64,000 bases of DNA. It comes from Lutjanus erythropterus. Lineage: Eukaryota; Chordata; Actinopteri; Lutjaniformes; Lutjanidae. Both the position numbers and the translations under genes were made by a program. The stretch is from NCBI GenBank assembly GCA_020091685.1, contig CM034597.1, positions 29,066,388-29,130,387 on the forward strand. Reading direction: 5' to 3'. Below the pieces are notes generated by a model. It worked only from the letters and a program-made list of their open reading frames with translations, made no database searches and was not told where the DNA came from. Below, one piece after another: positions 21,453-64,000 of the stretch. How positions within the stretch are numbered: position 1 is the stretch's first letter; each line of letters begins with the position of its first letter.

Positions 21453-21570
21453 TTGATAAATCGTGCATTTATTGGGGTTTAAATTTAATATCAGACGGAT
21501 GCAGGCGCACATTCGCTTGTACAATCCGGACACACCTGTCCGTACAGGTGTTTCCAGTTTGATTCTATAC

Positions 21571-21733
21571 AAGGCAGAATCAGTAGGATTTGTCCGAGAT
21601 GTTTGTAAACGCTCTTTCTCCGGACGTCAAATACCGACGGTTTTGATTGGTAAAGGGTCCAGAGCACGGCAAAATGAGGGTCTCACACTTCTTGTGGGTC
21701 ACTATTGTAGAAAATGTGACATATAATGCCTTA
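21571..21733 (+). mobile_element. MITE-like family 'AAAGGTAGAATCAG', short copy
   Basis: A 163-bp copy with 'ggcagaatcagtaggattt', 'gtttgtaaac', 'gacgtcaaataccgac', 'cttgtgggtcac' and the terminal 'atgcctta'. Five other copies are in the window. The ends are short imperfect inverted repeats (TAAAGGTA against TTAAAGGCA). The family has no coding frame. It is the copy closest to the ELAVL4 MVM exon. Confidence 0.65.
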
Positions 21734-33920: not shown

Positions 33921-34145
33921 CTGCTGCAACGATTAGATGATTTGATCAATTAGTTGTCAACTATTAATTAATTGTCAACTACTTTGATAATCAATTAATC
34001 AACCTGAGTCATTTTTTAAACAAAAATAGCAAACTTTACCCTGATCCAGTGTCTGAAGTGTAAGGGTTTACTGCTTTTCTTTGTCATTTATAACAGTAAT
34101 AGTTTCATTTGGTTTTAGACTGTTGGTTGGGCGAAAGGAAAAAAA

Positions 34146-34212
<67 letters not shown>

Positions 34213-34562: not shown

Positions 34563-35037
34563 ACAAAAATGCTCACTCTCACTAACTGTAAATCATATTG
34601 TAACTGCAATATCTATCAAAATAATTGCAATATGATTTTTTTTTCACCATATCTTGCAGTCCTATTCTTTAGCAACAATACTAGGAATCATTTCCCGCTA
34701 TGAAAATAACAAGACTTCTGAATCTAATAATAGAAACAAAGAGGTAAATTACATAATTTCTGCTGGAAAATTCTTAACAAATTATGTATGAAATACTGTA
34801 AATCAGCTCTTTTTGCAGTGACTAAATAACAGCTCAAGATACATTTATTATTAAAGGGACTATAAGGGCTAGTAGATAATGATGATGCTGCTGTTGCAGG
34901 AATGACTTACTGTTAGCCTCTTCTTGGACAATATTCATATTTTTATCAATTTCCAACATTTTATCTTGATTTAGCTTGCCCTTCATGAACGGCCTCCTTA
35001 CTTAAGCTAATCAATTAAAACAATCTATCACACATTT

Positions 35038-35247
35038 AAAGGTAGAATCAGTAGGCTTTGTCCAATCTGTTTGTAAACGCACCAGAAAGATAATTCTTTA
35101 GTTTCATTCCTAAATCTAATTTCCAGGACGTCAAACACTGACATTTTGGGTTGGTACAGCATCCTGAGCCGCCACCACACACTTCTAGTCTACATGTGTC
35201 AATACATTGTTTTTTTTAAAAAGAAAATTTAACATGTTATGCTTTTA
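35038..35247 (+). mobile_element. MITE-like family 'AAAGGTAGAATCAG', copy
   Basis: Starts AAAGGTAGAATCAGTAGGCT and ends 'aacatgttatgctttta'. Internal blocks 'gtttgtaaacgca', 'gacgtcaaacactgacattttgg' and 'cacacttct' match the other copies. Confidence 0.65.
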
Positions 35248-40022: not shown

Positions 40023-40200
40023 AATATGCCTCATCACCAGAAACACACTGATGACAAATGTGCAAAAATCACAAAAATAAACCATTTCCAAACCATTTTA
40101 CCAGAAATATAACTATGTATGACGAGGACCTAATAGTCACTCAGTTATTAATAAAAATGTTTTTAATTCATTTTGACCCTGTACTTTTTTTGTTGTTGTT

Positions 40201-40444
40201 AAAGGTAGAATCAGTAGGATTTGTCTGAGCTGTTCATAAACAAACTAGAAAGATAGTTGATTTTTGAGTCTCATTCCCAGGATGTCAAATACTGATGTTT
40301 TGCGTTGGTAAATACAGGCAGAAGGCAGAGTGTCTGCAGATACAGACACCATCACACACTTCTGGTGGGTCATATGTGATGATTGAGAAGGATTCTGTAT
40401 GAGTCTATAAATTGTTTTGTTTGAAAATGCTGCCTTGAAATTTA
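40201..40444 (+). mobile_element. MITE-like family 'AAAGGTAGAATCAG', long copy
   Basis: Starts AAAGGTAGAATCAGTAGGAT. It contains 'gagctgttcataaac', 'agatagttgatttttgagtctcattcccaggatgtcaaatactga', 'ctgcagatacagac' and 'ggtgggtcatatgtgatgattga', aligning along its length with the copies at 45394 and 22885 (reverse). Confidence 0.7.
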
Positions 40445-44806: not shown

Positions 44807-45393
44807 GTACTTGATAATAAGATTCCATTTAGGTTTGATGTACGATATTTTATTACCTGAAAACATGACTGTAGGAAGACACCTGGTGTTTATATAAAAT
44901 GATTTTGGCAGCAAGTAAGAAAGCCGTAACTAGAAAATGGTTACAGCCTGAACCACCTTTATTACAAGACTTTATTGAAATCATCAAGGATATATGGCAA
45001 AGTGACGTTTTTTTAAAAGCTGCAAGTATGCAGCTTCCAGTCATATTGGGCTAAATGAATACAATAATGTAATACCATACAATCTTTTCCCTCCTTCTTT
45101 CTTTCTTTTTTTTTTTTTTTTTAACTTTTTTGGGTCTAAGCAATGGGCAAAATACCACTAAAATACCATTATCACCTAAAGTAAATCTGCTTCCAATGTC
45201 TCCCCACCTGTTTTTTTGTTTTGTTTTATATGTCTTTTGTATAATTTGCTTGATTTGGATGTGGCTGATTCTCTTATTTTGTTTTGTACTTGTCTTTTTT
45301 TTCATAGTTTATCCAAAAGTATGAGCGCAACAATAAGAAAGGCCTACGGTATAAAACAGAAGGACTTATTAAATTCTCTCAAGAAAAACCATG

Positions 45394-45677
45394 AAAGGTA
45401 GAATCAGTAGGATTTGTCTGAGCTGTTTGTAAATGCAAAAGGAAGATAGTTGATTGTTGAGTCTCATTCTCAGGATGTCAAATACCAACATTTTGGATTG
45501 GCAAAGCATCTTGTGCACAGCAAAAAAAAAAGAAAATAAGGAAAGAGGAAACAGAGGGCAGGATCTCTGCAGGTACAGACCCCAACACACGCTACTAGTG
45601 GGTCATAAGTGATAACTGAAACAGATTATGTTTATATCTTTTTTTTTTTAGGAAAATGTTGCATATCATGCCTTTAA
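45394..45677 (+). mobile_element. MITE-like family 'AAAGGTAGAATCAG', longest copy
   Basis: Starts AAAGGTAGAATCAGTAGGAT and ends 'gttgcatatcatgcctttaa'. It is about 284 bp long and keeps both termini, so it is a good reference copy. An A-rich run (about 45521-45560) and a T-run near 45640 account for its extra length. Confidence 0.72.
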
Positions 45678-59919: not shown

Positions 59920-61913
59920 AGTCAGAGGAGTGAACGCTTGTCACTGGCCAGATGATTAACAGATACGTCAAAAGTCAGGAAAAGCCTATGTTTATACTTT
60001 ATGACAACACTTTCTCTAAATTAGGGTTTCCACCTCTGAAGTTATACAATTTATAGAAACTCTCAAGCACTTCATGGATCTGCTCTGCAGATTTTAAATC
60101 ACCCCTCAGTAATGATAATTGATGAAGAAATATTTTCTCCGTTGTCGAGATGAAGAAAAAACAAAACAAAAAAAGGCTGCCAGGAGATAAGTAATGAGGA
60201 CAAATGTTGAAGAAAATATTTCCACTGTTCACTAATGATGAAGGCTTCATTGTTTTCCCCTTATTTCTATAATTTCCTTTTTCCTTTCTTCCGACACTGA
60301 ACAGTGTATTTAATCTGTCCACTCTTATCTTCTCCCAGAAATTGTCATGTTGCAGTTGCAGAGTCCCTCTATAAAGAATGACTGATTAGAGTCATAGCTA
60401 GAGCTGAATTTATAGAGCAAGGACAGAGGTAGAAAGCAGACAGCAAGAATGAGATGGTGGGGAAGAGGAAGGGAAATAAGGAAGTGCAGAAGAAAAGAAT
60501 AATATGAACACTGGGGGGGCTGGTGGCTGGTGTTCTGTTGCTGGTGGGGGGAGAACGCAGTCAAGCTTGTCAGAAGATATTTATATACTCCAGAGTGCCC
60601 CATGAATCAGGATAGTGAGTTACCATTGATTAAAGAAGAGGGAAACGTTTTTACAATCAAGCTAGATGCTCAGAATGAGTGGCTTGGAGAGGCCTGAGCT
60701 TGCCGCAGTATACAGCAATCTACCTCGCCTCGCCTCGCCTCCCTCTCTGATGAAACAACCCAGAACGAGAGGCAGCCCAAGGATGGAAATACATTTTTTT
60801 CCAGTGTCATTTTTTCTTTGATTCAACATGAACATAAATTAGACAGTTTTGTGACATGTATCCCCCTACGCAAGAAATGTTACTTGGTATTATGCATTGT
60901 GCAGTCTCATGGCCTTTTGGTTGTTCGATTTTTGGCTTTTACAGTATTTTTTGTATAGCTCACCAACCTTAGATTGCTCTAACTCTTATGGGCTTTCCAA
61001 AAGAAGATCCATTCGTCTGAGTGGGAGGGAGCACTCCTGACATCTGATGTATTGAGAGGCACTCCCAGTCTCTCTGTCTCTCTTACATGTCCTTGGCAGC
61101 GGAGAAGCTTCACTGCTCAAATCACTAAATGGCCTCTCCAGTTTCCCTTTTAGCAGTTTTCTCTCCTCTCTCTTTCTTTTAAGTCAGGAGTAGAGTATGG
61201 AGATAAATTTGAGTTGTCTGGGGACTGTTGGCAAGACCATTGCTTTTGATTTATGCTATTTATTGGCCATTTGTATCCATAAGAGATTACTCTTTATTAT
61301 TATTGTGTTTTTTATTATCGTCATGTCCTATCTCTGGCATTCTTCAGGCATATTTTGTCAGTTTTATTTCCCTTTTTGTGCCATATTACGCCATGTGAGT
61401 TGGGATGTGTTATATTGGCTTGACCCTGAGGGAATCTTCCATACAGGGGTGTTGCCAAGCACACAAATTTATATGCAGTGCCTTTAAAGGACTATATATT
61501 TTTATAGAAATATATGTTTTTAATCTAATAGCATGTTTGCAATAAGGAAACAAAGGATTACATGATTGCTTGTATGTGAAAGGGGTTGCTCATACCGAAT
61601 TATCACTAAACTGCTCTGAAGTGTACTTAGTGTCTTAGAGTGTCCGATGCTGGTATCAGTATCGGTGCATCCCTAATTGTGACCAGGTGGCTGCCATTTT
61701 GGCAGAGATTATGTTGCCTATTTCTGTATAAAATGTATTCAGAAACTTGTTTTAATGAACTGTTTAGCTGTAATATTATGAAGTTACTCACCAGGCCCCC
61801 ATGTTGAAAACAGATGCGAGGAGGTCAGAGATTGATTTGCATGTGCACATATATACAAGATATGTGCGACTGGTTGCTTGTATTTTGGCTCGTTTCCAAC
61901 AAAAAACATTTCC
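59920..61913 (+). other. agbl4: AGBL4 intron 2, little seen
   Basis: Unique intron sequence with a short (CTCGC)n run at about 60725-60741 and an isolated transposon end at 61640-61678. No exon found. Confidence 0.4.
61640..61678. mobile_element. Solitary transposon end, 'cggtgcatcccta' type
   Basis: The reverse reading TTAGGGATGCACCGATACTG followed by 'ataccagcatcgg' matches ends of the same broad hAT-like group as 31487-32446 (AGGGATGGGC..., with a 'gtatcgg' palindrome). No partner end was found. Confidence 0.4.
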
Positions 61914-61946
61914 AAAAAAAAAAAAAAAAAAAAAAAGAAATATATA

Positions 61947-61981
<35 letters not shown>

Positions 61982-62021
61982 TGTCTCTTATACACATCTA
62001 TATATATATATATATATATAT
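61914..62021. repeat. Poly(A)-(TA)n microsatellite, interrupted by adapter sequence
   Basis: An A-run of about 23 is followed by TA units to 61980, then 19 foreign bases (61981-61999), then TA units again to about 62021. Without the interruption it would be a single long TA array. Confidence 0.95.
61981..61999. other. Tn5 mosaic-end / Nextera adapter contamination
   Basis: CTGTCTCTTATACACATCT is an exact 19-of-19 match to the Tn5 mosaic end used as the transposase adapter in Nextera libraries (reverse complement AGATGTGTATAAGAGACAG). It sits in the middle of a TA microsatellite, where assemblers commonly collapse or gap-fill. A chance exact 19-mer is very unlikely, so this is an assembly artefact, not fish DNA. 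Confidence 0.95.
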
Positions 62022-64000
62022 GGAAATAGTTTTTCTGTAATTCTGCTGACAGACAAACAAACAAACCGACAAACAAACCAAACTTAGCGGAGGTAATGAA
62101 TGCTATGTTACACTGTATCTTCTGTATGAAATGGTAACAGTTTGCGTAGTCATATAAAGTTAAAAGGTCATGTCAGTGTTGTGTTTACAGCTTGTTTTTG
62201 CTACTCCCCGGTGGCCAAAGTATCAGTTATTGCTGGTTTAATGAATTGATAAAACAATTTCTAGTTTATTTCTTCTCTGTCTTGTCTGAGCAGAACAAAG
62301 ATGGTCAACCTGAGAATCATAATAACTACAGACAACAACTATTTGCCTTCATCACATGGCTTCACGTGGGCTTGACAGAGTGTTTTTTCCATGGCAAGTG
62401 TGAAGTGATATCAGTAGTGTTACATAAAATGCTGAGCAAATAAAACAGAGTGATAATCCTGTCTGACATTTGGGCCTGTTGCATATGGTCACGTCTAATC
62501 ACTGAGTGAACACATTGGCTCAGTTGCGCTGGTCGGAAATGCCTCCTCTGCCAGGAAGTAGTACATTCAACCTCAGTGTTTTGTAAGTTAATTGTTGATG
62601 GCTCTGATATGAACTATACATAGGAGGCCCAGCCAGCACCTCATCTTCTCAAAATGTCACCAAATGCTAGCAGCAGCAAGCTGTTTTGTAAATTTTAAGT
62701 AATGAAAGGATTTGATTATCAACTGTATACACAGTGTGGCTGTGAGATTTGGAAAGGTTGAGAGGAGGAATATTCACATACTGGATATTATAAGAAATAG
62801 CCTATTTGTAACATGAAAATTGGCATTGCTGTTACTTCATCCATACTGAAGGATGTGGTTTGACACAAACAGGTTTAACTTTGTTGTTGTTTTTAAATTC
62901 CAGCTCTAGGCTATTTTGTGTTCTAAATGTACTTTGAAACATCACTATTCATTGGCTCAGGGCCTGCCTCTAGCATCGTGATACAAGTGTGTCGTAAGTG
63001 AAAATTACTGCAACTAGATTTCTGCATTGCACAAGTGGTGCTCGCGCACAAGGCTCCAGTGATTCATCCAGTAATTCATTTCCAAGCAATTCCTGACGCC
63101 ATAAACACAGTTTCAGAACAGACGTCTCATTTTTCATCCCAGGCAAGACTGTACGGGTTGGGAAAATGGTGAGGATTTGTAATGCTTTACTAGTTCATGT
63201 TTTTCAAGCTGCCTGTGTTTATTCTGCTGATTTATTTAGAAAACCTCTCAGTGAGATGAGCTTCATTGATGTGCCAGGGTTTGTTTGATAACACAAATTC
63301 ATGTACAGAATATGCTTATACAGTGAAGGGTGAAATACTGACAGGAGCAGAATTTTGATAGAATACATTTTGGTCTGAATCCAGGCAGCTATCTTGTAGG
63401 TCTACTGCTCAAAGTAAACAGTATTGAAATTCACTCCTCGGGGGCAAATGCTGTTATCAGGATTTTTTTCCGTGGACATTTCAAACAGCTTTTAATAGTG
63501 AACATATTGGAAGGTACTCTAGTTTTTACAGAGACTAAAAGAGTATATATTCTAGTTTTTAGAGATCATCAGATGATGCCTCATTTCTAAATATGTATTT
63601 TTTAGTATATTTAAAAGCTTAAGCATGCACTTGTAATGGTTATGAAAACAAATTTGAATGACAAAAGTTCATTGGCAAGTGTTAATACAAAACTAGTTGA
63701 TTTTGTAAGCAAACTGTTGACATTATAATATAGTGAAAAAGTGCTCAACCGGAGAGAATCTATGGGAATATTTACAAATAGTTTACAGGCGCATTAAGAA
63801 ATATGTTTCTTGAAAAACCAAAAAAGATACAAGCTTATGTAGATGAAAAACCATTGACATATATAAAGATTTGAAACATGACTGCTCCCCAGAAGTGAAG
63901 CCAAACATCTCAATTGCCCCATGGTGTCCAGCTGCAGTACAGGTCATAAACCCAGCATCCAGGTTTCATGTCATTTGGAGATAAGTCTGCTATACAGTTT
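62022..64000 (+). other. agbl4: AGBL4 intron 2, no gene seen
   Basis: Intron sequence up to the window edge. A 26-nt segment at 63143-63168 has AG and GT at its borders but encodes nothing like CCP6. Otherwise AT-rich sequence with no obvious repeat family. Confidence 0.4.

Follow-up and report, generated by a model that had tools for sequence, protein, structure and literature searches.

A Tn5 mosaic end inside a TA microsatellite of a Lutjanus erythropterus assembly is an artefact, most probably the start of an stLFR adapter

The adapters of Illumina Nextera libraries carry the 19-bp mosaic end (ME) of Tn5 and continue from it into CCGAGCC or GACGCTG, continuations that are also present in the prokaryote and viral contigs compared below, and libraries for single-tube long fragment reads (stLFR, BGI/MGI) have a barcode block with a 10-6-10-6-10 layout, that is, three 10-mers with two 6-base linkers. 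The ME itself was derived in the laboratory and took the place of the natural ends (PMC4248319). For stLFR, the MetaTrass paper prints the adaptor filters, a forward one that starts with the ME followed by TAGGAAGACAAGCACTGACGACATGA... and a reverse sequence, so that nt 1-45 of the stLFR adapter and the reverse adapter are both available in print (PMC10989976).

Our locus lies in a window of 64,000 nucleotides, by which we mean the whole stretch of DNA that was analysed (C7:29066388-29130387), within an assembly of 937,629,617 bases (937.6 Mb) in 444 contigs. Here CTGTCTCTTATACACATCT, the synthetic 19-bp ME, stands at 61981-61999 on the + strand with 19 of 19 letters exact, interrupting a TA repeat just as a sequence-only reading of this DNA had claimed. 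It is the sole match in the window even when up to three mismatches are allowed, for which chance gives a mean of 0.06 (at least one match in 5 of 100 shuffles), and exact copies are expected at 0.02-0.07 per Gb under Markov models (orders 1 to 4) fitted to the remainder of the window. The sequence around it is A/T only, from 61938 to 61980 on the left and from 62000 to 62021 on the right:

61914..61936, no strand: poly(A) run immediately preceding the A/T tract, ordinary genomic sequence judging by its letters and the repeat listing
61938..61980, no strand: left A/T-only tract, mostly (AT)n, the genomic side from which the scar would have been entered
61981..61999, + strand: 19-bp mosaic end of Tn5, most probably representing nt 1-19 of the stLFR adapter, an artefact
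62000..62021, no strand: right (AT)n tract, abutting the ME without adapter bases, the join not trustworthy

The ME passes directly into ATATAT; the stLFR adapter beyond the ME is absent at this copy, which carries no kit-specific base of its own. The window is free of Ns and, apart from the ME, shares no exact stretch of 13 bases or longer with the Nextera, TruSeq, P5/P7, SMRTbell and stLFR oligos tried, and Rfam and tRNA scans of it returned nothing. Elsewhere in the window, the other poly(A) and (AT)n tract (34139-34212) has no ME and only a single C as interruption, and a four-copy interspersed repeat (21568-21627, 35036-35095, 40199-40258 and 45392-45451; 68-83% identical over 60 nt) is probably a short transposable element.

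Across the whole assembly, where counts of repeated sequence can be lower bounds, the exact ME occurs 141 times (58 + 83) and the same letters read backwards not once; with up to one mismatch the count becomes 149 (63 + 86, reversed control 0), and since only 8 copies are thereby added to the exact ones, these are not surrounded by diverged relatives, and no decayed family is present. We read 117 of the 141 at 88 places, namely the first 100 by contig order plus 17 from further match lists, and because 100 of the 117 were taken by contig order the last contigs are under-represented. At 64 of the 88 places at least half of the 30 nt to the left of the ME is microsatellite, a test passed by 1.1% of random positions in the window (n = 19,920) and by 2.9% of positions in the retrieved flanks (n = 7,400); the left flank falls below this threshold at the other 24, which counts against the explanation that we favour. 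The sequence-only reading had proposed that other TA tracts of the assembly may carry the same scar and that 19-mer hits inside simple repeats be counted, and many simple-repeat tracts do carry the ME: under a looser limit, which 68 of the first 79 places pass, the repeat units of the left flank are AT (44), AG (9), AAT (8), AGG (4) and others (3). The adapter side has a run of 10 or more Ns no farther than 250 nt away at 24 of the 88 places, the microsatellite side at none; similarly, a single N follows the last ME within 60 nt at 4 of 79 places, and the opposite side has one within 250 nt at 0 of 79. Beyond the adapter comes either genomic-looking sequence or a gap. At 64 of the 88 places, however, there is no long N run nearby, so that most places show no visible gap, and this too counts against our explanation.

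What follows the ME tells the kits apart. In 119 of the 141 copies it is TAGGAAG, as in the stLFR adapter, and for 102 copies the match to this adapter, taken from the ME start, extends over at least 73 nt in 31, 42 nt in 11, 33 nt in 9, 32 nt in 11, 30 nt in 9 and 19 nt in 6, with the others in between. The genome contains the last 22 nt of the reverse adapter, as reverse complement, at five positions, all of them adjoining an ME, and the reversed control gives 0. Two places, one on C6 (L280) and one on C7 (L287), hold the construct whole, running from (AAT)n through the ME, the adapter, a 10-mer, GGAAGG, a second 10-mer, CGCAGA and a third 10-mer into the full reverse adapter in reverse-complement form, and at a further place (L271) this layout is repeated with different 10-mers and a truncated reverse adapter. 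We take these 10-mers to be stLFR bead barcodes. The three of them are identical between the C6 and C7 places, and the same barcode on two chromosomes indicates that both were supplied by one library molecule or one bead. In addition, a 176-base concatemer of stLFR adapter pieces recurs without change at six places on several chromosomes (L245, L256, L304, L321, L328 and L329).

The assembly thus contains the ME with TAGGAAGACAAGCACTGACGACATGA, and the barcode block with the reverse adapter, neither of which is found at the window copy; the kit at the window is therefore read from the siblings in the same assembly. Stopping directly after the ME is not unique to this copy. In ten copies of the genome the letter after the ME is not T but A, C or G. 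The reverse adapter comes next in three of them (L323, L324, L325), another ME in one (L291), GTGTGT in one (L249) and unclear sequence in one (L326); the remaining four, which include the window copy, have an (AT)n left flank and pass directly into ATATATAT. The ME stands alone between two (AT)n tracts at four sites, namely in the window and at L250, L252 and L253.

We put the probability at roughly 95% that the 19 bases in the window are the start of the stLFR adapter, brought there by untrimmed reads that served to extend the sequence into microsatellite gaps. If the adapter was left on part of the reads, short-insert read-through reads would end in the microsatellite and then run into the ME and the adapter, and at microsatellite gaps, where genuine reads would be few or ambiguous, gap closing could let such untrimmed reads carry the left flank into the adapter; the extension would then be connected to the right flank or end in front of Ns, and in the window the join would have come right after the ME, onto the right (AT)n flank. 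That stLFR oligos are present in the assembly, mostly at microsatellites and with gaps on the adapter side only, is an observation; we infer that the window copy arose in the same way as the other copies and that the join is the work of a gap closer. Gap filling had been offered as a route by the sequence-only reading, and it is the likely one. A published fish pipeline prepares a Supernova draft and then fills gaps using GapCloser with stLFR reads (PMC9632004), and another published pipeline filters adaptors from its stLFR reads (PMC9650296), which means that such contamination is not inevitable. Such filtering speaks against our explanation, as does the absence of adapter bases beyond the ME in the window.

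The main rival keeps the stLFR oligos but places the joining step in the tube instead of in software, as a chimera that arose during PCR or ligation with the TA repeat as priming site. The bottom ME oligo, printed in PMC3046479, stops at the ME end and would provide a possible 3' end exactly there, and an ME alone joined to (AT)n recurs at four sites; but the N gaps and the single Ns fall on the adapter side only, and one identical concatemer is shared by six unrelated places, so that software joins fit better and we consider a tube chimera unlikely. Far less probable still is read-through into an Illumina Nextera paired-end adapter: the 19-mer is the same in Nextera, and most of the ME copies listed from prokaryote and viral contigs do continue that way, but in the present genome the ME is followed by CCGAGCC or GACGCTG in no case, as against 119 of 141 continuations into the stLFR adapter, and the kit named by the sequence-only reading has to be replaced accordingly. 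Its other suggestion, a Nextera mate-pair junction left in the assembly, fares even worse. NextClip searches for one or two 19-bp adaptors (PMC3928519), and a solitary ME flanked by genomic sequence left and right might represent one half of a junction, but a junction consists of the ME plus its reverse complement, and the two orientations occur together neither in the window nor at any of the 88 places, each of which has the ME in one orientation only; moreover, the stLFR adapter, the barcodes and the reverse adapter have no place in a mate-pair protocol.

It is just as hard to believe that the 19 bases are real genomic sequence, be it by chance, as a natural transposon end or as part of a repeat family. 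The nine letters on the two sides of the ME are identical at the four ME-only sites, as a 9-bp target duplication would give, but a nine-letter match inside an (AT)n tract is worth one bit, and among six copies followed by six A/T letters two resume with TATAT, not ATATAT; a target-site duplication in the window was rejected on these two grounds. Clusters of MEs with conserved spacings (42/34/52) resemble a dispersed repeat family, but they are stLFR adapter concatemers, and the copies are undiverged, 141 exact against only 8 with one mismatch. A natural Tn5/IS50 end was likewise rejected, the window letters being those of the synthetic ME, a laboratory product.

The ME in the window is an assembly artefact without biological reality. 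As the sequence-only reading had stated, adapter sequence makes the assembly erroneous at this point, with 141 exact copies against none reversed and with siblings that run into adapter; its warning about the TA repeat also stands, in that neither TA length nor continuity is reliable at 61938-62021. We lean, without great assurance, towards a systematic error of stLFR assembly, in which adapter, barcodes and a fixed concatemer are written into microsatellite gaps and become false interspersed repeats, and which would extend to other genomes from the same pipeline. A listing-level search of the open-licence literature found no description of stLFR adapters at microsatellites. Synthetic DNA with bead barcodes at 88 or more places in one chromosome-scale assembly is a practical warning: microsatellite lengths at the scars cannot be taken as measured and the joins across them are unproven, the 176-base concatemer could pass for a transposon or a repeat family in repeat finders, and translated frames gain a foreign peptide, which at the window site is DVYKRQ. 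An open frame over the scar (61825-62172, - strand) reads IYIYIDVYKRQYIYIY, in which DVYKRQ is the translated ME, and this peptide may act as a tell-tale in predicted proteins. A one-line search for the ME followed by TAGGAAG would reveal such scars in any assembly.

How these scars relate to known adapter contamination can be judged from prokaryote and viral contigs, where the matches listed comprise at least 260 ME copies in at least 239 loci. Among these at least 260 copies, 215 run into the Nextera adapter (some of them judged on fewer than six letters), 30 end at the ME and 15 do otherwise, and 246 lie no more than 80 nt from where the retrieved stretch ends. Internal copies among those listed number 14, of which 7 have Ns no farther than four letters away, 6 run on into a Nextera adapter and 1 does neither; the last (L192:3073-3091) is the only internal ME of the 14 that has neither Nextera adapter nor Ns next to it. 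In the viral contigs the reversed ME and TATATA plus ME have one match each, while ME plus ATAT and ME plus TAGGAAGAC have none, and the 73-nt stLFR adapter has no match in phages, plasmids and E. coli genomes. The ME is Nextera in the prokaryote and viral contigs and stLFR in our assembly. Illumina Nextera adapters share the same 19-bp ME, but their continuation appears nowhere in this genome, whereas the stLFR adapter has its first 19 nt identical to the ME of the window, with the difference that the window copy stops after it. Ordinary adapter contamination of draft contigs is alike in that adapter was left in the assembly, but it sits almost entirely at the ends of stretches, unlike the scars described here, which lie inside chromosome-scale contigs.
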